Shown here in pieces: positions 8,396-20,522 of a DNA stretch of 41,425 nucleotides. Numbering within the stretch: position 1 is the stretch's first letter; the number at the start of each line of letters is the position of its first letter. The position numbers and the translations under genes are program-made. Source of the stretch: a virus; the IMG/VR virus record IMGVR_UViG_3300045284_000074, positions 1 through 41,425 of that record; one strand, written 5' to 3'. The notes below the pieces were generated by a model. It did no database searches. It was not told the DNA's origin and saw only the letters and a program-made list of their open reading frames with translations.

Positions 8396-8994
8396 ACGCC
8401 GTCGCAACCTGCCGAGCGCACCAAAACCTTGACGCTAAGCCTTTGGCGGCATTAGAAGCGCCAACATCGCGCGCCAGCCACGCCGACTGCGGACGCTATT
8501 GGGCCACCGCACAAACCCATCCCCAAGCCGAACGCTGGGCCGCCCAATGCCTCACCCGCCGCGGCTATCACGTCTACCTGCCGCTGCTCATCGTCCAGCG
8601 CCGTGATCGAACCATCCCAACCCTGCTGCATCGCATCGAGCGACCGCTCTTCAGCAGCTACCTCTTCATCCAACTCGGCAACACCGATCCCTGGACGCCG
8701 GCGCGCTACACCGATGGCATCCGCCAGCTCCTCATGAGCGGTTCAAAGCCCCATAAATTGCCCGAAACCGTGATGCTTGCCCTCCAGGCCGGTGACGCCT
8801 TCCGCCGCCTCCCACTACCGGACGCACCGCTCCTGCGCCCTGGCGCCCCCGTCACGTGCCTGTACGGGCCATTCCAGGGACGAGACGCCGTCGTCATCGC
8901 CGCCGCCACCAATACCGCACGCATCGCACTCCCAATGCTCGGCGCCATGCGAGAGCTGGTGGTGCCAATCGCATGTCTCACAGCACGAGAATGA
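8392..8994 (+). CDS. NusG-like transcription antitermination protein
   Basis: 200 residues from GTG 8392, whose GTGA overlaps the preceding stop. The NGN-type domain spans ~36-120: RYWATAQTHPQAERWAAQCL, RRGYHVYLPLLI, RIERPLFSSYLFIQL and a DGIRQLLMSGSKPHKLP segment. A KOW-like end follows (RPGAPVTCLYGPFQGRDAVV, ~149-168). This is the pattern of NusG/RfaH, which clamp RNA polymerase and prevent termination. Just upstream of the terminase and the 26-kb late block, it most likely promotes late-gene read-through. Lambdoid phages usually use Q-type factors, so a NusG paralogue here is notable. The first ~35 residues are an extra low-complexity leader. Confidence 0.8.
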   Translation: MNAVATCRAHQNLDAKPLAALEAPTSRASHADCGRYWATAQTHPQAERWAAQCLTRRGYHVYLPLLIVQRRDRTIPTLLHRIERPLFSSYLFIQLGNTDPWTPARYTDGIRQLLMSGSKPHKLPETVMLALQAGDAFRRLPLPDAPLLRPGAPVTCLYGPFQGRDAVVIAAATNTARIALPMLGAMRELVVPIACLTARE

Positions 8995-9003
8995 TCGCCA
9001 CCA

Positions 9004-9273
9004 ATGGCTACACGCCTCAGCCCCAAGCACGACGAACTGACACGCTCAAAAATCCAGACAAGTCAGCTCGTCAATCGCTTGAACGCATTCGCTTTGGACG
9101 AGGATGATTCAATCCGGATGTCCTCTGACCAGGTCCGTGCCGCTCTCGGCCTCCTGAAGAAAACCATCCCGGATTTAGCGGTCACATCGCACACCGGCCC
9201 AGATGGCGGCGCCGTCACAATCGAGGTTATTACCGGCGTTCCAAGACGCGAAGAGAGTAGCTTCGATCCGTGA
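9004..9273 (+). CDS. Putative terminase small subunit
   Basis: 89 residues: MATRLSPKHDELTRSKIQTS, then QLVNRLNAFAL and MSSDQVRAALGLLKKTIPDL. The pattern R.KI.TS.L...L...A.G...M...Q..AA..LLKKT.PDL is a phage family found just before the large terminase gene. I call it the small subunit mainly from position and motif. No ribosome site is clear; translation may be coupled to the NusG-like gene ending at 8994. A competing frame from ATG 8991 (38 codons) overlaps it and is judged less likely. Confidence 0.6.
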   Translation: MATRLSPKHDELTRSKIQTSQLVNRLNAFALDEDDSIRMSSDQVRAALGLLKKTIPDLAVTSHTGPDGGAVTIEVITGVPRREESSFDP

Positions 9274-9292
9274 TTTGTTGCTAAGATTGCAT

Positions 9293-9775
9293 ATGGGAAT
9301 AATAGCGCGACCGCTCCTTGAGCGACTTCAAGAGAAATACCGTGTCAACGACATAACTGGATGTTGGGAATGGACAGCATCCATTAAACGCAACGGCTAT
9401 GGTCAGATCGGCATTCCCGGACCCAAACCGACGATGCTGGATGCTCACCGCGCCTCGTGGATCGTTCACAACGGACCCATTCCGCATAAAATGCTGGTTC
9501 TGCATACTTGCGACGTAAAAACGTGCGTCAACCCGGCCCATCTCTGGCTCGGGACGCAGAGAAACAACATGCAGGATTGTTTACGCAAAGGCCGATTTGA
9601 TCGCGTCAAGAAGCTACGTGGCGAGAGCCATTATGCCGCGCGTCTTACCTGGGATCAGGTTGAGGCAATTCGTGCCGACACACGCAGGCAAATAGACATC
9701 GCTGCTGATTACGGCATTCGGCAAGGTTATGTGTCGGGCATCAAATTGTACAAGAAATGGCGGTCAAAAGAATAA
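9293..9775 (+). CDS. HNH homing endonuclease between the terminase subunits
   Basis: 160 residues. GCWEWTASIKRNGYGQIG (23-40), AHRASWIVHNGPIP (51-64), VLHTCDVKTCVNPAHLWLGT (69-88) and NNMQDCLRKGRF are the hallmarks of free-standing HNH_3 homing endonucleases. The C-terminal part (LTWDQVEAIRADTRRQI, AADYGIRQGYVSGI) is the usual DNA-binding helix-turn-helix of these enzymes. Its DNA is clearly A/T-richer than the neighbours, a sign of transfer. It overlaps the start of the large terminase gene by 19 bases, so insertion may have reshaped that start. Confidence 0.9.
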   Translation: MGIIARPLLERLQEKYRVNDITGCWEWTASIKRNGYGQIGIPGPKPTMLDAHRASWIVHNGPIPHKMLVLHTCDVKTCVNPAHLWLGTQRNNMQDCLRKGRFDRVKKLRGESHYAARLTWDQVEAIRADTRRQIDIAADYGIRQGYVSGIKLYKKWRSKE

Positions 9776-11064
9776 CTTTGAACTACCGGCCGAGGGAGCA
9801 ATTCCTTGAGTTCCACCAACGCAAAGAACGGTGGGCGTGCATTGTTGCGCATCGTCGGGCCGGGAAGACAGTCGCTTGCGTGATGGATCTGATAGACCAC
9901 GCTCTACGCTGCAAAAAGGAAGCTGGGCGATATTCATATCTGGGGCCGACATATGCACAGGCGAAGGATTTGGTGTGGTCATACTTAAAGCGATTCACGG
10001 GTGACATTCCGGGTATTGAGCAGCGGGAATCCGACCTTATGGTCACGTTTCCCAACGGCGCCAGGGTTCGTCTTTATGGTTGCGACAATTTCGATCGACT
10101 TCGCGGCACTTACAACGATGGTCTGATTTTAGACGAGTTTGGAGACATGGACCCCCGCGCATGGCCGGAAGTGCTGCGGCCCTCGCTGGCGGACAGAAAG
10201 GGATGGGCGGTCTTCATTGGCACGCCAAAAGGCCGCAACCATTTCCATGAGATATTTAAGTTGTCCGAAGCTGGCCCTGACTGGTTCTCCCTCGTCCTTC
10301 GCGCAGATAAAACCGGCATCCTCGATGCTCATGAGCTTGCTGAAATGCGCGCTATGATGACTGAGGATACCTATAACCAGGAAATGCTTTGCAGCTTCGA
10401 GGCCGCCATCCGCGGCGCCATCTACCGCGATGAACTCGCCGAAATGGCCGCATCCGATCGCATCTGCGGCGTGCCGTTCGATCCCGCCGTGCCCGTCTGG
10501 ACTGCCTGGGACCTGGGCATCGGCGATGCCACCGCAATAATATGCGCCCAGCTTGTCGGTCGCGAAATCCACATCATCGACTACTACGAGGCCACCGGCG
10601 AGCCGCTGACGCATTACGTCGCATGGCTGGAGTCTAAACCCTACCGATACGGCATCGACCTGCTGCCGCACGACGCTGGCGCGCGGGAACTCGGCACCGG
10701 CAAAACCCGCGAGGAGCTGCTGCGCCAGAACGGCCGCAAGGTCCGCGTGCTGCCCCGGCAGGACATCGATGACGGCATCAACGCCGTGAAGCTGCTGCTG
10801 CCGCGATGCTGGATGGACCGCGCCAAGACCGAGCGGCTGCGCGAGTGCCTGGCGCACTATCACCGCGACTTCAACGACCGCATGGGCGTGTTCAAGGATG
10901 CCCCGGTGCATGACTGGGCATCACATGCCTCTGACGCGGCGCGGACGCTGGCGATGGGGCTGCGCGAGGCAACGCCGAAGGTCGTGGACATCATCAGCGG
11001 GCAGTTGCCGACCCGGAAATACCTCGAGCTGCGCGGGCTCGAATCATCGTGGATGGGGATATAG
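9757..11064 (+). CDS. Terminase large subunit
   Basis: 435 residues. ATPase domain: Walker A AHRRAGKT (31-38), Walker B GLILDEFGDM (122-131) with the catalytic Asp-Glu pair, and motif FIGTPKGR (153-160). Nuclease domain: WDLGIGDATA (about 249-258), LLPHDAGARE (about 302-311) and a late HASDAAR supply the acidic residues of an RNase-H-like fold. This enzyme packages DNA into procapsids at the portal and cuts concatemers, as P22 gp2 does. Length is normal for the family. The first ~600 bases are A/T-richer than the rest, like the HNH gene they adjoin, suggesting co-transfer or gene conversion on homing. Confidence 0.95.
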   Translation: MAVKRITLNYRPREQFLEFHQRKERWACIVAHRRAGKTVACVMDLIDHALRCKKEAGRYSYLGPTYAQAKDLVWSYLKRFTGDIPGIEQRESDLMVTFPNGARVRLYGCDNFDRLRGTYNDGLILDEFGDMDPRAWPEVLRPSLADRKGWAVFIGTPKGRNHFHEIFKLSEAGPDWFSLVLRADKTGILDAHELAEMRAMMTEDTYNQEMLCSFEAAIRGAIYRDELAEMAASDRICGVPFDPAVPVWTAWDLGIGDATAIICAQLVGREIHIIDYYEATGEPLTHYVAWLESKPYRYGIDLLPHDAGARELGTGKTREELLRQNGRKVRVLPRQDIDDGINAVKLLLPRCWMDRAKTERLRECLAHYHRDFNDRMGVFKDAPVHDWASHASDAARTLAMGLREATPKVVDIISGQLPTRKYLELRGLESSWMGI

Positions 11065-12145: not shown

Positions 12146-12337
12146 GTGATTACGCTTTTGGTGTGGTTGCTGGTGCTTTGTTTGGTGCTTGGGCTGATCA
12201 TCTGGGTGATTCAGATGCTGCCGCTGCCCGCGCCCTTTGGCACGATTGCGATTGCGATTGTGGCGTTGATATTCATTCTGATTTTGGTGGGGGCATTGCT
12301 GGGCGAGGTGCCGCTGCGGCCGATCCGGTTGCAATAA
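12146..12337 (+). CDS. Small two-pass membrane protein, holin candidate
   Basis: 63 residues from GTG 12146 with AAGGGGGG upstream. Two hydrophobic segments, ~3-23 (TLLVWLLVLCLVLGLIIWVI) and ~32-54 (FGTIAIAIVALIFILILVGA), are joined by MLPLPAP. The segment LPLPAPFG recurs, as I recall, in small alphaproteobacterial phage membrane proteins of unknown role. Two-pass topology and size suit a holin, but no lysin is adjacent, so this is only a candidate. Confidence 0.6.
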   Translation: MITLLVWLLVLCLVLGLIIWVIQMLPLPAPFGTIAIAIVALIFILILVGALLGEVPLRPIRLQ

Positions 12338-12577: not shown

Positions 12578-12925
12578 ATGCCATTCGATTTACTGCCGGA
12601 ACGCGAGGCCGAGGATATCGTCCGCCTGCGGGTGGCGCGCGATGGGGTGGGGGCACACTGGTGCACCGGCAAGATCGGAATCGAGGACGATCCGCGGCAT
12701 TGCGCCGTAGGCTGGCTGCTGGTGGCGACGGACTGGGATCCGGGCGAGGCCACGCGGCTGGCGCTGGAATACGTCTACCCGGCCCTGCCGCCCACCGTGC
12801 AAGCCAAATACAACGGCCGCCTTGAGGCGATCTGGAAGTTCAACGACGGCGCCGACAAGAAACGCGTGCTGCGGCTGTTCAACGACGCGATCGCCCTGGC
12901 CGAAAAGGCCCATGCGCCTCGATGA
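12578..12925 (+). CDS. Hypothetical phage protein
   Basis: 115 residues with an excellent ribosome site (GGGGAGGGGGG, 4 bases before ATG). Sequence features are LRVARDGVGAHWCTGKIG, RHCAVGWLLVATDW and a helical C-terminus (KKRVLRLFNDAIALAEKAH). The HWC.G......C..GW pair of cysteines appears in phage proteins of unknown role that I have seen with this layout. Its end overlaps the sigma-like gene by 14 bases. Confidence 0.6.
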   Translation: MPFDLLPEREAEDIVRLRVARDGVGAHWCTGKIGIEDDPRHCAVGWLLVATDWDPGEATRLALEYVYPALPPTVQAKYNGRLEAIWKFNDGADKKRVLRLFNDAIALAEKAHAPR

Positions 12926-13838
12926 GCAGTCGTCCGCCCCGTGGGACTACGAACGGCAACTGATTGACCGCATAGCCATCCGCGAGGCGGTGCGGGATGT
13001 ACTGACGCAGCGGCAACGACGCATTCTGAGCGGTTACTACCACCGCGGCGAAACGCTGGACGATCTGGCACAACGCGAGAAAGTAAGCCGATCACGCGCG
13101 TTGCAACTGGTGCAGAATGCCGAACGCAAGCTGAAGACGCGCTTCGCCGGGCCGAAGATCACCCAGGCGGCGCCGCTCCAGACGACGGCACAGACGTTCC
13201 CGCCAGGCTTCGACAAGGCCGCCTTCCTCGCCCACATGCGCGGGCTCAAGGACTGGGAGTTCAACCGCAAGGCGCGCGAGTTCGAGCAAGAGCGCCGCCG
13301 CCTGGCCGAAATGCTGGAGGAGGAGCGCCGCAGCCGGGACTACGCCGAGAAGCTGACGGCCAAGGCCAAGGCGGCGCACCCCGTAGGCAAGATCACGCTT
13401 CCGGTGCAATATAAGGTCGTTGCGGCCCCGCCGGGCATCGCGCCCACCGCCTACCACTACCACGACGGCGGCACGGCCTTCCAAGGCACCTACTACACCC
13501 ACCCGCCGCCGCTGACGCACGCGGAGATGGTCACCAAGGCGGACTGGGCGCTGCGGCTGTTCCTGCTGTCCCGCCGCCCGACCACCGCGGGCGTTCCATG
13601 GCTCGGCAAATGGGCAACACGGGTGCAATACCCGCGCGACGGCGGCCAGATCGGCGAGGCCGTGGCGCAACTGGCTCGGGATATCCCGCCGAACGCGCTG
13701 CTCTCGGCGTTTCCGCTTGAGATCCCCGAGGGCGTCAAGGGCGCGATTGCCACCAATAGCTGGGCCAGCCTGCGGGTATTGGCCAGCAAGGACGACCTGC
13801 TGCTGTTCGTCGATGCCACCTGGGACGAAGGGCCGTGA
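12912..13838 (+). CDS. Sigma-70 region 4-like protein with a long C-terminal domain
   Basis: 308 residues from ATG 12912. Residues ~20-75 read IAIREAVRDVLTQRQRRILS, GYYHRGETLDDLAQREKVSR, SRALQLVQNAERKL, a good match to sigma-70 region 4 (the -35-recognition helix-turn-helix, L...R..VL..Y...G.TL.EIA...G.S..R..Q....A..KL). A charged coiled coil follows (REFEQERRRLAEMLEEERRS, ~115-140), then an unrecognised Tyr/Pro-rich C-terminal domain. No region 2 is present, so it cannot be a complete sigma factor; it may bind DNA or modify RNA polymerase. An in-frame extension upstream to 12822 lies over the previous gene. Confidence 0.6.
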   Translation: MRLDEQSSAPWDYERQLIDRIAIREAVRDVLTQRQRRILSGYYHRGETLDDLAQREKVSRSRALQLVQNAERKLKTRFAGPKITQAAPLQTTAQTFPPGFDKAAFLAHMRGLKDWEFNRKAREFEQERRRLAEMLEEERRSRDYAEKLTAKAKAAHPVGKITLPVQYKVVAAPPGIAPTAYHYHDGGTAFQGTYYTHPPPLTHAEMVTKADWALRLFLLSRRPTTAGVPWLGKWATRVQYPRDGGQIGEAVAQLARDIPPNALLSAFPLEIPEGVKGAIATNSWASLRVLASKDDLLLFVDATWDEGP

Positions 13839-13844
13839 CATGCG

Positions 13845-14222
13845 ATGGAGCAGCCGCCGCCAGAACATAGACCGCGCAACTGGCTGACGCTCGGCGTGCT
13901 CGGCGCCGCCGGCGGCGTTGCCGTCTACGTCTTCACCATCGGCAACGAAATTGGCACGATGAGGCAACAGACCGCGAGCCAGGAAATTCGCATCACGGCG
14001 CTGGAAACGCACGGGTCAGGCCCAGTGCAGACCGCCAACGCCAAGGTCGATGCCGTCATCGCACGGGCCGACCGGATACTCACCGAGTTGCTGAACATGC
14101 AGCAGCGCATTGCCGACATCCAGGCCACCCAGCAAGCCCAAGCGGTGGCAATCGCCCGCCTGCAGCAGGACATGACCACGCGCCGGCAACTGCCGGACCC
14201 ACCAACCAACGGGGAACGATAA
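13845..14222 (+). CDS. Membrane-anchored coiled-coil protein
   Basis: 125 residues. One transmembrane segment at ~13-33 (WLTLGVLGAAGGVAVYVFTI), then a long coiled coil (~35-112) with QEIRITALETHG and MQQRIADIQATQQAQAVAIA. N-in, C-out topology with a periplasmic coiled coil resembles inner-membrane spanins and XhlA-like proteins, so a lysis role is possible, though no outer-membrane partner was identified. Its stop overlaps the start of the PEP-CTERM gene (TAATG). Confidence 0.6.
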   Translation: MEQPPPEHRPRNWLTLGVLGAAGGVAVYVFTIGNEIGTMRQQTASQEIRITALETHGSGPVQTANAKVDAVIARADRILTELLNMQQRIADIQATQQAQAVAIARLQQDMTTRRQLPDPPTNGER

Positions 14223-14959
14223 TGCGCCATTACCTCGGCATTGGCATGATCGCGTCGGCCGCATTCAGCGCCGCCATCGCCCTCTCGCCGCATCCGGCCC
14301 ATGCAACGCTGCAACTCGCGGCGGACTTCGGCGGCACCACGTTCCTCTGCGTCGATAACGCCGCCTGCGATACCAACCTGTCCACTGGCACCATCCAGAT
14401 CGCCGACCAAACGATTGGCGGGGTGACGGTGAACGGGTCCATCCAGGGGTCGGTGGGGACGCCCGCCAACCCGAGCACGCAAGATATCCTCAACACTAGC
14501 AGCCTGTCGGCGATCAATACGCTCGGCGTGGCTGTGGGGTATACCGTCACCGTCTCGGATACCAATTTCGCGGCGCCGGTCGGGCAATTCAGCCTGTCAG
14601 GGTCGGGCGTCTTCGAGAACGCGGTCGGCTCCACCGCCCTGATGCGCTGGTGGGCCGATACCGCCAACAGCCAGGGCGCGGACGCAGTGGGCGACACGCC
14701 GGGCACGCTGCTCGATAGCTTCTCGTCCACGGCCACGCTGATCGCCGACAGCTACAGCCACAGCAGCAGCGGCCCGTTCGTCGCCACATCCCCGTTCTCA
14801 ATGACCGAGCAGATTACCGGCACCATCGCCGCTAACGGCACGCTGCTCAATCGCGGCCAGACCGAAATCCTGTCCCCGGTGCCGGAACCGGCATCCATGG
14901 CGCTGCTGGGCGCCGGGCTGGTCGGCATGGCCATGGTCCGCAGGAGGTCGCGGCGCTAA
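14222..14959 (+). CDS. Secreted PEP-CTERM sorting-signal protein
   Basis: 245 residues. An N-terminal signal peptide (MRHYLGIGMIASAAFSAAIA with a probable cut after AHA near residue 28) leads to a Ser/Thr/Gly/Ala-rich beta-type body with one Cys pair (FLCVDNAACD). The C-terminus carries SPVPEPASMALLGAGLVG followed by MAMVRRRSRR: the PEP motif, a hydrophobic segment and an arginine cluster that define PEP-CTERM substrates of the exosortase system. Host exosortase would cleave and anchor or export it. Such proteins are bacterial surface or matrix proteins; finding one between terminase and portal is unusual. It may alter the infected cell surface, or be a host-derived cargo gene. GGGGAA precedes the ATG. 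Confidence 0.85.
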   Translation: MRHYLGIGMIASAAFSAAIALSPHPAHATLQLAADFGGTTFLCVDNAACDTNLSTGTIQIADQTIGGVTVNGSIQGSVGTPANPSTQDILNTSSLSAINTLGVAVGYTVTVSDTNFAAPVGQFSLSGSGVFENAVGSTALMRWWADTANSQGADAVGDTPGTLLDSFSSTATLIADSYSHSSSGPFVATSPFSMTEQITGTIAANGTLLNRGQTEILSPVPEPASMALLGAGLVGMAMVRRRSRR

Positions 14960-14961
14960 CC

Positions 14962-17175
14962 ATGCCCAAGCCAAAAGCCGCAGACGAGAAGATCCTGCGC
15001 GAGGCGAAGGCCCGCTTCGAGCGCTGTCAGAGCTGGGAGTCAGCTTGGAGGGATAGAGCAAAGTTCGATATAAAATTCGCAAATGGAGACGCTTTAAATA
15101 ATGGTCAGTGGGACAGCAATGTCCGCCAGGAGCGCGGCGCGAGGCCGTGTCTGACGTACAACCAGGTGCGGACCCATAATCTCCATATTATTAACGATGC
15201 GCGACAGAACAAGGCGCAGATCAAGGTAACGCCTACGGGCGGACGGGCCTCCTACGAGTCCGCCCAGATCTTCAGCGGCATCATCCGCCGCATTGAATAC
15301 CAGTCCAAAGCGGTCGATGCCTACAGCACGGCGATATATCATCAGGTGGAATCCGGCATCGGGTATGTGCGCGTCGAAACCGACTATGTGGATCAAAATT
15401 CGTTCGATCTGGACCTGTTCGTGCGCCGCATCGCCGACCCGTTCACCATCTACTGCGATCCCGACGCGAAAGAATACGACAAGGCGGACATGAACTTCTG
15501 CTTCGTGTTCGAGGATGTGCCAAGGGATCGCTACGAGGAGGAATACGGCAAGGAAGACAGCCCCGCGCCCACCACCTTCGACAATACCGACAACTGGAAC
15601 GACAAGGACCACGTCCGCATCGCCGAATACTGGCGCCGCAACATCAGCGACGACACCATCCACCTGATGCAGGACGGGACGACGGTGCGGGATAGCGAAA
15701 TCCCGGCCGAGGTGCGGGAGCAGATCACACCGTTTATCGTCAAGAGCCGCAAAGTCGCCGAGCCGGAAATCGAGTGGTTCAAGCTGGCGGGAAACAAGAT
15801 CATCGACCGTGAGGAATGGCCGGGGAAATACATCCCGATCGTGCCGTTTCTCGGCGAGGAGCTGGTGATCGACAACGAAATGGACCGCAAGGGCCACACG
15901 CGGTCACAGATCGACGCCCAGCGCATTTACAACTACTGGGCCAGCGCGGCGGTGGAACAGGTAGCACTCCAGACCAAGACGCCGTACGTCGCCACCGCCG
16001 CGGCCATCCAGGGCCACGAAGAACAGTGGATCACGGCCAACATCAAGAACTGGAGTGTGCTGCTCTACAACGGCGTGGACGAGACCGGCGCCCCGATCGC
16101 CCCGCCGGCCCGTGAACCGCCTCCGCAGATGGCGCAGGCATACGTGACCGGCATGCAGATCGCCCGCGAGGATCTCCGCGCCGTCACCGGCCAATACCAG
16201 GCCGAACAGGGCATGCCGAGCAACGAACGGTCAGGCATCGCCATTCAGCAGAGGCAACGTCAATCCGAAACCGCAACCTACCACTACGTCGATAACCAAG
16301 CCAAGGGCATCAGGCAGGTTGGCCGCATTCTGCTCGATCTGATCCCCAAGATTTACGACGTGCAGCGGGTGGTGATGACCTTGGGTGAGGATGGCAGCGA
16401 GGCGAAAGTGCTGGTGGCACCCGATGCGCCAGAAGCTCACCAGGCGATCGGACAGGGGCCTGACGGGCAGCCGCAGACGCTGACGCAGGGCGATGCCCAG
16501 CAGCAGATGCAAGACCCGGACAAGCCGGACCCGACGATCATATTCAACCCGAACGTGGGTCTTTACGACGTCGAGGCCGATGTCGGCCCGAGCTACGGCA
16601 CCCAGCGCCAGGAGGCGGCAAACGCCTTCAGCCAGATCATGGCGCAGAACCCGGCGGCGTTTCAGATCGTCGGTGACTTCTGGGCGAAGAACAGCGATTT
16701 CCCCGGCGCTGACGAACTCGCTGACCGGCTCAAGCGCGGGCTGCCGCCGATGTACAAGGCCGACGCGCCCGATCCGCAGGTCGTGGCGATCACCCAGCAG
16801 GCACAACAGACGCAACAGCACGCGCAACAGCTTCTCGGGCAGGCCGATCAGGAGATACAGACGCTCAAGCAGCAGGTTGCGGTGTTGCAGGCACAGGCCA
16901 AGGACAAGAGCGCCGAGATTGCGGTCAAGGACTACAGCGCCGAAACGGACAGGCTCAAAGCCGTGGGCAGCATCGACCCGCTATCGCTGCAAATCATCGT
17001 CCGTCAGATGGTGCAGGACATGCTCCAGACTGAACTGGAGCCGGCGCTGCACGCTCACGCCGAGATGGAGGGGCAACTGGCGCAACGCATGGCCCCGCCA
17101 CAGCCGATGAACGGTGAGGGCGCACCTAACGGGCAGGCACCAGCCCCAGCACAGCCCCCAGGACCGATGCAATGA
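14962..17175 (+). CDS. P22-like portal protein
   Basis: 737 residues, close to the P22 portal (725). The N-terminal half contains QNKAQIKVTPTGG, VESGIGYVRVETDYVDQ, DPFTIYCDPDAKEYDKADM and AEYWRRN, typical of P22-type portals. The C-terminal third is Gln-rich helix (TQQAQQTQQHAQQLLGQADQ) matching the portal barrel. A dodecamer at the head vertex conducts DNA and docks the terminase and tail. It follows the PEP-CTERM gene by two bases and is coupled by ATGA to the next small gene. Confidence 0.95.
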   Translation: MPKPKAADEKILREAKARFERCQSWESAWRDRAKFDIKFANGDALNNGQWDSNVRQERGARPCLTYNQVRTHNLHIINDARQNKAQIKVTPTGGRASYESAQIFSGIIRRIEYQSKAVDAYSTAIYHQVESGIGYVRVETDYVDQNSFDLDLFVRRIADPFTIYCDPDAKEYDKADMNFCFVFEDVPRDRYEEEYGKEDSPAPTTFDNTDNWNDKDHVRIAEYWRRNISDDTIHLMQDGTTVRDSEIPAEVREQITPFIVKSRKVAEPEIEWFKLAGNKIIDREEWPGKYIPIVPFLGEELVIDNEMDRKGHTRSQIDAQRIYNYWASAAVEQVALQTKTPYVATAAAIQGHEEQWITANIKNWSVLLYNGVDETGAPIAPPAREPPPQMAQAYVTGMQIAREDLRAVTGQYQAEQGMPSNERSGIAIQQRQRQSETATYHYVDNQAKGIRQVGRILLDLIPKIYDVQRVVMTLGEDGSEAKVLVAPDAPEAHQAIGQGPDGQPQTLTQGDAQQQMQDPDKPDPTIIFNPNVGLYDVEADVGPSYGTQRQEAANAFSQIMAQNPAAFQIVGDFWAKNSDFPGADELADRLKRGLPPMYKADAPDPQVVAITQQAQQTQQHAQQLLGQADQEIQTLKQQVAVLQAQAKDKSAEIAVKDYSAETDRLKAVGSIDPLSLQIIVRQMVQDMLQTELEPALHAHAEMEGQLAQRMAPPQPMNGEGAPNGQAPAPAQPPGPMQ

Positions 17176-19334: not shown

Positions 19335-20522
19335 ATGCCAGCCACCAATACTTTGTTGACTATAAATATGATTACGGCAAAGGCGCTAGCTATTCTCCAT
19401 CAGAAGTGTAACTTCATCGGCGCCATCAACAGACAATATGATGATTCCTTCGCTAACTCCGGCGCCAAGATCGGCACTACTCTCCGCATCCGGCTCCCGG
19501 TGCAGTACACCACCAGCACCACCCCGGCGCTGTCGCTCCAGAACACGGTGGAAACATCCGTCAGCCTGCCGATCACGAACCAGTACCATGTGGACTTCTC
19601 GTTCTCGTCCGCCGAACTGACGCTCACCATCGATGAGTTCTCGGTCCGCTATATCGAGCCGGCCATCGCCCAGCTCGCAGCCTCCATCGAGGCCGCAACC
19701 ATCAACATGATGTGGCCGACCGTCTGGAACCAGGTCGGCACGGCAGCCGCCGCGATGCCGTTCAAGACCGTATTGCAGGCCCGCAAGCTGCTGCTCGATA
19801 ACCTGACGCCGCAGAGCAAACAGTGGTTGTTGCGTATTAACACCCAAGACAACGTCGATCTCGTTGACGTCACGAAAGGATTGTTCCAAGCCTCGACGCA
19901 GATCGCCAAGCAATACACCGATGGCGTGATGGGGCTGTCTGCTGGGTTTGAATGGGCGGAGAACACCCATCTCACCACCCAGACGCGCGGCGCGGAATCC
20001 GGCTATCTGGTGTCGCCAGCATCGCAAACCGGCAGCACATTGGCGGTGATCACCGGCACGGGCGCGGGAAATGCCGGCGACGTCTTTACCATCACGGGCG
20101 TCTATCGCGTTCACCCGGAAACCAAGATCAACACCGGCGTGCTCCAGCAGTTCGTGCTGACGGCGGCATACACTGGCGGCGCGGGCAACATGGCGATCGC
20201 ACCGGCAATCGTCACGTCCGGCCCGACCCAGAATGTAAGTAATAGCCCAGCTTTGAACGCGCCGATCACGTTCGCCAACACGGCGTCCGTCGCCACCGGC
20301 CTGTCGCTCGCCTTCCACCCGGATGCGTTCACCTTCGCCACCGCCGACCTCGTGATGCCCGGAGGCGTGGACATGGCCTCGCGGGTCGTCAAGGACGGCA
20401 TCTCGATGCGCGCCGTACGGCAATACAGTATCAGCGACGACACCTTCCCCATCCGCATCGATGTGCTCTGGGGAGCCGTTGCACTTCGGCCACAGTTGGC
20501 AGTTCGGCTTGTGGCCAATTAG
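19335..20522 (+). CDS. P22-like major coat protein
   Basis: 395 residues (P22 coat is 430). Starts MPATNTLLTINMITAKALAI, with early blocks KIGTTLRIRLPVQYT and SLPITNQYHVDFSFSSAELT, then a Thr/Gly-rich insertion-like middle (GTGAGNAGDVFTITGVYRVH) and an end ISMRAVRQYSISDDTFPIRI. This is the P22 gp5 family arrangement, an HK97-type fold with a telokin-like I-domain. It builds the icosahedral shell. The start lacks a strong ribosome site, which is odd for such an abundant protein and may reflect the upstream insertion. Confidence 0.9.
   Translation: MPATNTLLTINMITAKALAILHQKCNFIGAINRQYDDSFANSGAKIGTTLRIRLPVQYTTSTTPALSLQNTVETSVSLPITNQYHVDFSFSSAELTLTIDEFSVRYIEPAIAQLAASIEAATINMMWPTVWNQVGTAAAAMPFKTVLQARKLLLDNLTPQSKQWLLRINTQDNVDLVDVTKGLFQASTQIAKQYTDGVMGLSAGFEWAENTHLTTQTRGAESGYLVSPASQTGSTLAVITGTGAGNAGDVFTITGVYRVHPETKINTGVLQQFVLTAAYTGGAGNMAIAPAIVTSGPTQNVSNSPALNAPITFANTASVATGLSLAFHPDAFTFATADLVMPGGVDMASRVVKDGISMRAVRQYSISDDTFPIRIDVLWGAVALRPQLAVRLVAN

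Follow-up and report, generated by a model that had tools for sequence, protein, structure and literature searches.

The window, that is, the whole stretch of DNA analysed here, is an entire IMG/VR virus record of 41,425 bases and reads as a P22-like phage. Besides the features collected in Table 1, it carries a P22-type coat gene at 19335-20522 and genes for a head-tail adaptor, ejection proteins, an Erf-like annealing protein, a Gam-like protein and a replication initiator. The closest portal matches, those of Acetobacter phage phiAX1 (41%) and Pseudomonas phage PAE2 (45%), are too remote for naming a host. The gene under study lies between terminase and portal, as the first-pass annotation had placed it, with several small genes separating it from the terminase. 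Its ATG at 14222 overlaps by one base the TAA stop of the preceding gene (TAATG); because it starts on the last base of that stop, it looks translationally coupled to its neighbour and part of the late operon. This type of neighbour is present in 15 of the related loci described below, and its homologue in locus L003 has a weak match to the Rz-like spanin family phrog_739 (E 0.013). The homologue of the small two-helix membrane protein had no match in PHROGs.

Table 1. Position and basis of the features at the locus.
Feature	Position	Strand	Basis
Terminase large subunit	9757..11064	+	phrog_2, E 1.6e-37
Small two-helix membrane protein	12146..12337	+	Holin-like by layout alone; gene caller and hydropathy; 16 loci
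Upstream neighbour, one N-terminal membrane helix and coiled coil	13845..14222	+	Spanin-like by layout
PEP-CTERM protein gene of phage	14222..14959	+	ORF and translation, 245 aa and stop; PF07589 and TIGR02595 above cut-off; dN/dS 0.11-0.17
Predicted signal peptide, residues 1-28	14222..14305	+	Putative cleavage after AHA; conserved Ala26/Ala28; model helix 8-21
Predicted exported beta-sandwich domain, residues 29-219	14306..14878	+	AlphaFold2 pLDDT mostly >90; conservation; VIA-align
PEP-CTERM sorting tail, residues 220-245	14879..14956	+	VPEP motif, hydrophobic helix 224-244, Arg cluster; TIGR02595/PF07589
P22-type portal protein, next gene downstream of the PEP-CTERM gene	14962..17175	+	PF16510, E 7.9e-166; phrog_156, E 8.3e-125

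Several further observations concern the same genome. Two genes upstream of the PEP-CTERM gene, the ORF at 12822-13838 (called start 12912) encodes a sigma-70 region 4 domain (PF04545, 30.2 bits against a cut-off of 24.1) with a long extra C-terminal part. After the terminase, the product of 11068-11457 matches the NCBIfam model ZirU below its cut-off (22.9 bits against 100). The segment 40615-40808 holds about two copies of a 54-nt tandem repeat (74-78% matches), and the ORFs of the C-rich end region around it look non-coding.

Exosortase and the PEP-CTERM proteins that are its clients have been described in bacterial genomes, where they are linked to exopolysaccharide, flocs and biofilms. 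The 245-aa product of 14222-14959 starts with MRHYLGIGMIASAAFSAAIALSPHPAHA followed by Thr and finishes in VPEPASMALLGAGLVGMAMVRRRSRR. Its N-terminus has the look of a signal peptide, with a positively charged start, a hydrophobic stretch and an AxA site, and was modelled as a helix at residues 8-21; its C-terminus combines the PEP motif, a hydrophobic helix and a basic cluster. The first-pass annotation had proposed this architecture, and profile searches bear out the tail: TIGR02595 scored 26.2 bits (cut-off 16) over residues 220-243 and PF07589 scored 29.2 bits (cut-off 20.7) over residues 219-242 in the protein scan, and a genome search with PF07589 gave a single match in the whole window (E 1.9e-9, 34.1 bits). 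The PEP-CTERM feature is thus real and well beyond chance. PHROGs returned no match for the protein, and its phage family is absent from that collection.

Six pairwise comparisons between the window and the related loci L002, L003 and L004 gave a dN/dS of 0.11-0.17 for the PEP-CTERM gene (pN of 0.064-0.077 against pS of 0.35-0.47), as compared with 0.04-0.14 for the portal gene, which marks it as a genuine gene maintained by purifying selection. In the exported domain, the Cys/Asp motif formed by C43, D45, C49 and D50 stands out, with Cys and Asp residues that are invariant in the aligned relatives.

AlphaFold2, run with 68 sequences, returned a model with a pLDDT of 88.8 and a pTM of 0.80, in which the predicted helix at residues 8-21 precedes a run of strands spanning 31-219, and a second helix covers 224-244. 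A sequence search of the PDB found no match to the window protein, and Foldseek matches of the model were weak (TM-score below 0.35 of the query). VIA-align placed it closest to Bdellovibrio Bd1399 (8okh_B, Z 9.5 over 141 residues), followed by the surface glycan-binding protein SGBP-B (7kwc, Z 8.5) and the carbohydrate-binding module TmCBM61 (Z 8.1), although by the tool's own caution such Z values are attainable by a common beta-sandwich arrangement. As modelled, the ectodomain is a jelly-roll of the sugar-binding kind, similar to the beta-sandwich of TmCBM61 and SGBP-B (Z 8.1-8.5) at a sequence identity of 6%, and the shared fold shows no function.

Relatives of the phage were found to carry the client as well. 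A first scan of IMG/VR yielded 22 relatives, 43-91% identical to the window protein, and a second, alignment-based scan of these viral contigs yielded 129, the best 80 of which were retained; the patterns of the second scan sit in the ectodomain, none of them in the tail. Together, the window and the 84 loci of both scans form a family set of 85 loci with 74 distinct proteins. A literal PEP tail ends 76 of the 85 first copies, two are cut off at contig ends, and seven have variant tails, PEA, REP, SEP, TEP and AEP forms among them. Alignment A2 (68 rows) revealed near-complete conservation of key residues at both termini: E222 is present in 68 of 68 rows, P223 in 67 and P221 in 64, at least two Lys or Arg residues fall within the last 12 residues in 67 rows, and Ala28, just before the cleavage site, is found in all 68 and Ala26 in 65. 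TIGR02595 matched 59 of these 68 members at E 0.01. PF07589 matched in 47 of 50 longer records, the three exceptions being L012, L013 and L050, and at least two matches were found in 17 of the 50.

The named model scoring best on the window protein was the flocculation-associated floc_PepA (NF033554), which covers residues 112-243 and hence part of the ectodomain, and which matched 62 of the 68 members at E 0.01. The window protein was nevertheless rejected as a PepA, its 42.9 bits falling far below the cut-off of 80.

In 19 loci the gene caller placed a second ORF with a different ectodomain directly downstream; PEP-type tails terminate 18 of these, and the remaining one is truncated by a contig end. 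The tandem genes have mainly the signal peptide and the tail in common, and their ectodomains differ. Examples are L026 10663-11382, L051 10837-11583, L063 10705-11505 and L077 10681-11457, and for the second ORFs scanned, matches to named PEP-CTERM models are either confined to the tail region or below the model cut-offs. In L059, the ORF at 8619-9617 (332 aa) runs on for about 90 residues beyond a GEP-type tail, either by fusion or by frameshift.

The genomic settings of the family vary. L002, L003 and L004 have the terminase-to-coat block of the window in common, and elsewhere the terminases differ (phrog_38 in L005 and phrog_9 in L055, as compared with phrog_2 in the window), as do the neighbouring genes, which indicates that the gene travels among unrelated phages. 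No exosortase was found in any of 50 related phage records, and none of the 50 encodes a sigma-54 activator scoring above cut-off. Sorting would accordingly need an exosortase of the host, and the absence of a phage enzyme supports the reliance on host sorting that the first-pass annotation had suggested.

The family was then sought beyond uncultured viral contigs. Among 50,697 records of isolated phages, tblastn found no relative of the window protein (E up to 0.01) or of the L074 protein (E up to 1); a 26-residue generic tail query gave no match either, a result in which the low-complexity filter may have masked the query. A single-pattern scan of 84,980 bacterial and archaeal genomes found no true relative of the ectodomain family, and the one of 28 stretches that passed, from a Moraniibacteriota MAG (L024), matched in the tail alone (residues 217-245). 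Since the pattern fits 30 of the 85 phage members, this absence is meaningful yet incomplete. Plasmids gave five weak partial matches, all in Roseomonas. A PEP-CTERM tail pattern run against viral contigs gave 85 listed matches, of which 81 lie at the C-terminus of an ORF and 27 come from the present family or from its tandem partners. As the matches listed exceed this family, further phage-borne PEP-CTERM families exist, in contigs that may include prophages with host flanks. Loci L087-L165 contain several such families, one of them, for example, marked by the motif SFGQTxGTPITATENGA, which recurs across many contigs.

The upstream regions of the family genes recall a regulatory layout described for bacterial clients. 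According to PMC1569441, 99 of 167 proteobacterial PEP-CTERM genes have a 17-nt motif ending in TTTACA upstream, a spacer of about 63 nt (32-92) leads to a sigma-54 -24/-12 site averaging 71 nt before the start codon, the motif is tied to the regulator PrsR, and box and sigma-54 element are confined to Proteobacteria with PrsK/PrsR. PMC9850573 likewise describes a PEP-CTERM gene as RpoN-dependent. Our initial scan used a sigma-54 consensus, with score weights of our own; the box pattern was later taken from PMC1569441, before its test.

In 17 of 81 family genes, as compared with 8 of 1,489 other genes, the region 45-75 nt ahead of the start contained a site with a sigma-54 score of 24 or more. 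The composite element, defined as [CT]TTACA, 20-95 nt and a sigma-54 site with a score of at least 20, was present upstream of 30 of 81 family genes against 4 of 1,485 other genes and 25 of 4,050 shuffled upstream regions; among the four controls, L037 8730-9503 also encodes a PEP-CTERM protein, though of a different kind. On both strands of the family loci we counted 64 composites, and as only 31 of them precede the PEP-CTERM gene, the element alone is not perfectly specific. Among the tail-scan matches listed, 3 of 51 non-family PEP-CTERM ORFs have the element. Two PEP-CTERM genes on Roseomonas plasmids are laid out alike: the spacer measures 62 nt in one and 41 nt in the other, whose box reads TTTACT rather than TTTACA.

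The 23 distinct elements give a 17-nt box consensus, TGTCGG(n)AAACTTTACA, and spacers of 40-42, 50-53, 62-63 and 84 nt. These spacers follow a period of 10.5 (R 0.87, reached by 0 of 20,000 uniform simulations), a pattern spotted post hoc in elements that share phylogeny and are not independent. Such helical phasing would be expected if the activator has to lie on one face of the DNA, turned towards RNA polymerase. An upstream gap of at least 103 nt was found for 27 of 28 measured genes with the element, and a gap below 100 nt for 33 of 50 without it.

A blind scan of IMG/VR with the strict element returned 19 stretches. Twelve lead to a PEP-CTERM gene within 36-70 nt, together representing at least five ectodomain types, and seven lead to none; after removal of near-identical copies, 10 of 15 lead to a PEP-CTERM gene. 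Three near-identical contigs (L203, L208 and L211) carry the strict element with no PEP-CTERM gene found downstream.

The composite is absent from 51 of the 81 family genes tested, the window gene included; none lies on either strand of the window, and the window gene thus lacks the promoter of a PrsK/PrsR regulon. On a tree of 68 ectodomains, 25 rows bear the element, with eight changes. The window forms a supported clade with L002, L003 and L004 within a supported clade of 18, and 13 of the 14 other members carry the element, so that the window lineage is most simply accounted for by loss of the element on a move into the late operon. Many of the relatives, judged by their upstream sequences, appear to be wired into the host exopolysaccharide regulon through a PrsR-type box and a sigma-54 promoter.

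The phage proteins share with the clients of the PEP-CTERM/exosortase (EpsH) system (TIGR02595/PF07589) the signal peptide, PEP motif, hydrophobic helix and basic end, and many of them have kept the sigma-54 and TTTACA-box promoter of proteobacterial clients. They differ from bacterial clients in lying in phage gene clusters devoid of an exosortase and in having an ectodomain family that the pattern used did not reveal in bacterial genomes. They also resemble superinfection-exclusion and envelope-modifying proteins of phages in that they are phage-made and would act on the envelope of the infected cell, and we know of no such protein that uses exosortase sorting.

These features argue that the gene probably encodes a client of the host exosortase, displayed outside the inner membrane; the case for sorting, made from sequence, is strong. 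The product of this late-operon gene of a P22-like phage combines signal peptide, all-beta domain and PEP-CTERM tail; it would be exported by Sec and retained in the membrane by its tail, and the host exosortase would cleave and transfer it for display on the outer membrane or in the exopolysaccharide. There, the sugar-binding-like domain could alter the interface between envelope and exopolysaccharide of the infected cell, by masking receptors, rearranging the matrix or easing release. The first-pass annotation had suggested blocked superinfection or an altered biofilm as putative effects. In the favoured version, masking or rearrangement of receptors and matrix would keep competing or sibling virions from adsorbing. 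Host clients offer a parallel: they hold exopolysaccharide to the cell (PMC12188702 and PMC9850573), and PepA overexpression raises cell-bound exopolysaccharide (PMC9850573). The masking step itself is proposed only tentatively. We favour it on two grounds: most phages that retain the gene have no integrase, and copies with the host-type promoter could be transcribed by host polymerase ahead of late phage expression. The surface of a lysogenic cell, which the first-pass annotation had also considered, is unlikely as the main setting, given that the window has no tyrosine integrase and that only 6 of 50 records searched (the window counted among them) have one.

Next after masking or rearrangement we rank a lysis accessory, exported late to weaken the outer membrane or exopolysaccharide shell or to bridge the envelope layers at the end of infection. 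The window gene does overlap a membrane/coiled-coil gene, small membrane proteins with at least one helix lie within three genes in 36 of 52 loci (24.4 expected; 0 of 1,000 shuffles), and a GH25 endolysin cluster (representative phrog_291, E 4.8e-33) adjoins the gene in four loci. However, small holin-like proteins with at least two helices show no enrichment at a distance of one or two genes (p 0.41 and 0.21) and reach it only within four (p 0.009), the gene adjoins DNA replication genes in other loci, and the host-type sigma-54 promoter before many copies would ill suit a late lysis gene. The signal peptide, moreover, contains no Cys (the first is residue 43) and hence no lipobox of an outer-membrane spanin, so the protein is not an ordinary o-spanin lipoprotein. 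All in all, we consider a role in lysis unlikely. That the protein is a decoy which saturates the host exosortase, leaving host PEP-CTERM matrix proteins undisplayed and the floc or biofilm loosened, is a more improbable reading still. It would fit the tandem genes, whose common parts are mainly the signal peptide and tail, and a host-matched promoter would time expression with the host clients, but the ectodomain is under purifying selection and keeps its invariant Cys and Asp residues, from which it follows that it does something itself.

Two further accounts would dispense with viral use of sorting altogether. The tail could be a mere C-terminal anchor in the inner membrane that resembles PEP-CTERM, as a signal peptide, a C-terminal helix and basic residues would anchor any protein. 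Membrane anchoring has no need of Pro-Glu-Pro, yet E222 (68/68) and P223 (67/68) are kept, and the regulatory element of bacterial PEP-CTERM genes precedes many copies; we regard this account as quite improbable. The contigs could also be bacterial or mis-assembled and the gene a host gene, IMG/VR contigs being predictions, several of them short, and PHROGs giving no match for 4 of the 10 large proteins that were scanned in loci with the element. For the window this is refuted by its terminase, portal, coat, adaptor, ejection and annealing genes, and the same block recurs in L002-L004. Element-bearing loci likewise carry terminases (L005, L055), a virion structural protein (L033), a head-tail adaptor and portal (L071) and a phage-type DNA polymerase (L067), and the single-pattern genome scan gave no true relative, so that for the family as a whole a host origin of the contigs is hardly credible.

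Searches of the open-licence PMC literature found no paper on phage-encoded PEP-CTERM clients and none on a phage gene in the PrsK/PrsR regulon. The nearest precedent is a single sentence in PMC11003980, which names, among the genes of hot-spring viruses that were transferred horizontally, TIGR03118 proteins whose exosortase interaction domain is putative. What is new here are PEP-CTERM clients of viral origin, many of them under the promoter of bacterial clients. We lean towards the broader view that phages of exopolysaccharide-forming Proteobacteria maintain a class of viral PEP-CTERM proteins with several unrelated ectodomains, using the host exosortase tag and the PrsR/sigma-54 promoter code. 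If so, these viral genes would be members of a bacterial surface-matrix regulon, and it would be unusual for a virus to place genes under a sigma-54 surface regulon of its host. Because the element is confined to Proteobacteria with PrsK/PrsR according to PMC1569441, the uncultured phages of the family most likely infect such hosts. By keeping the tag, and often the promoter code, through wide divergence, the family demonstrates the importance of the PEP-CTERM system in phage-host conflict, and it supplies small, selected proteins for testing that system.

A last observation concerns the coat gene of the related L002. No RNA families were detected in the window or in L002, and the insert described here had no Rfam match at the gathering threshold. 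At L002 11541-13567, the coat gene, unbroken in the window, is split after codon 29 by 842 nt coding for an HNH-like protein, in which visual inspection picked out zinc/Cys pairs and a HIEND motif. The arrangement resembles that of a homing endonuclease carried by an intron.
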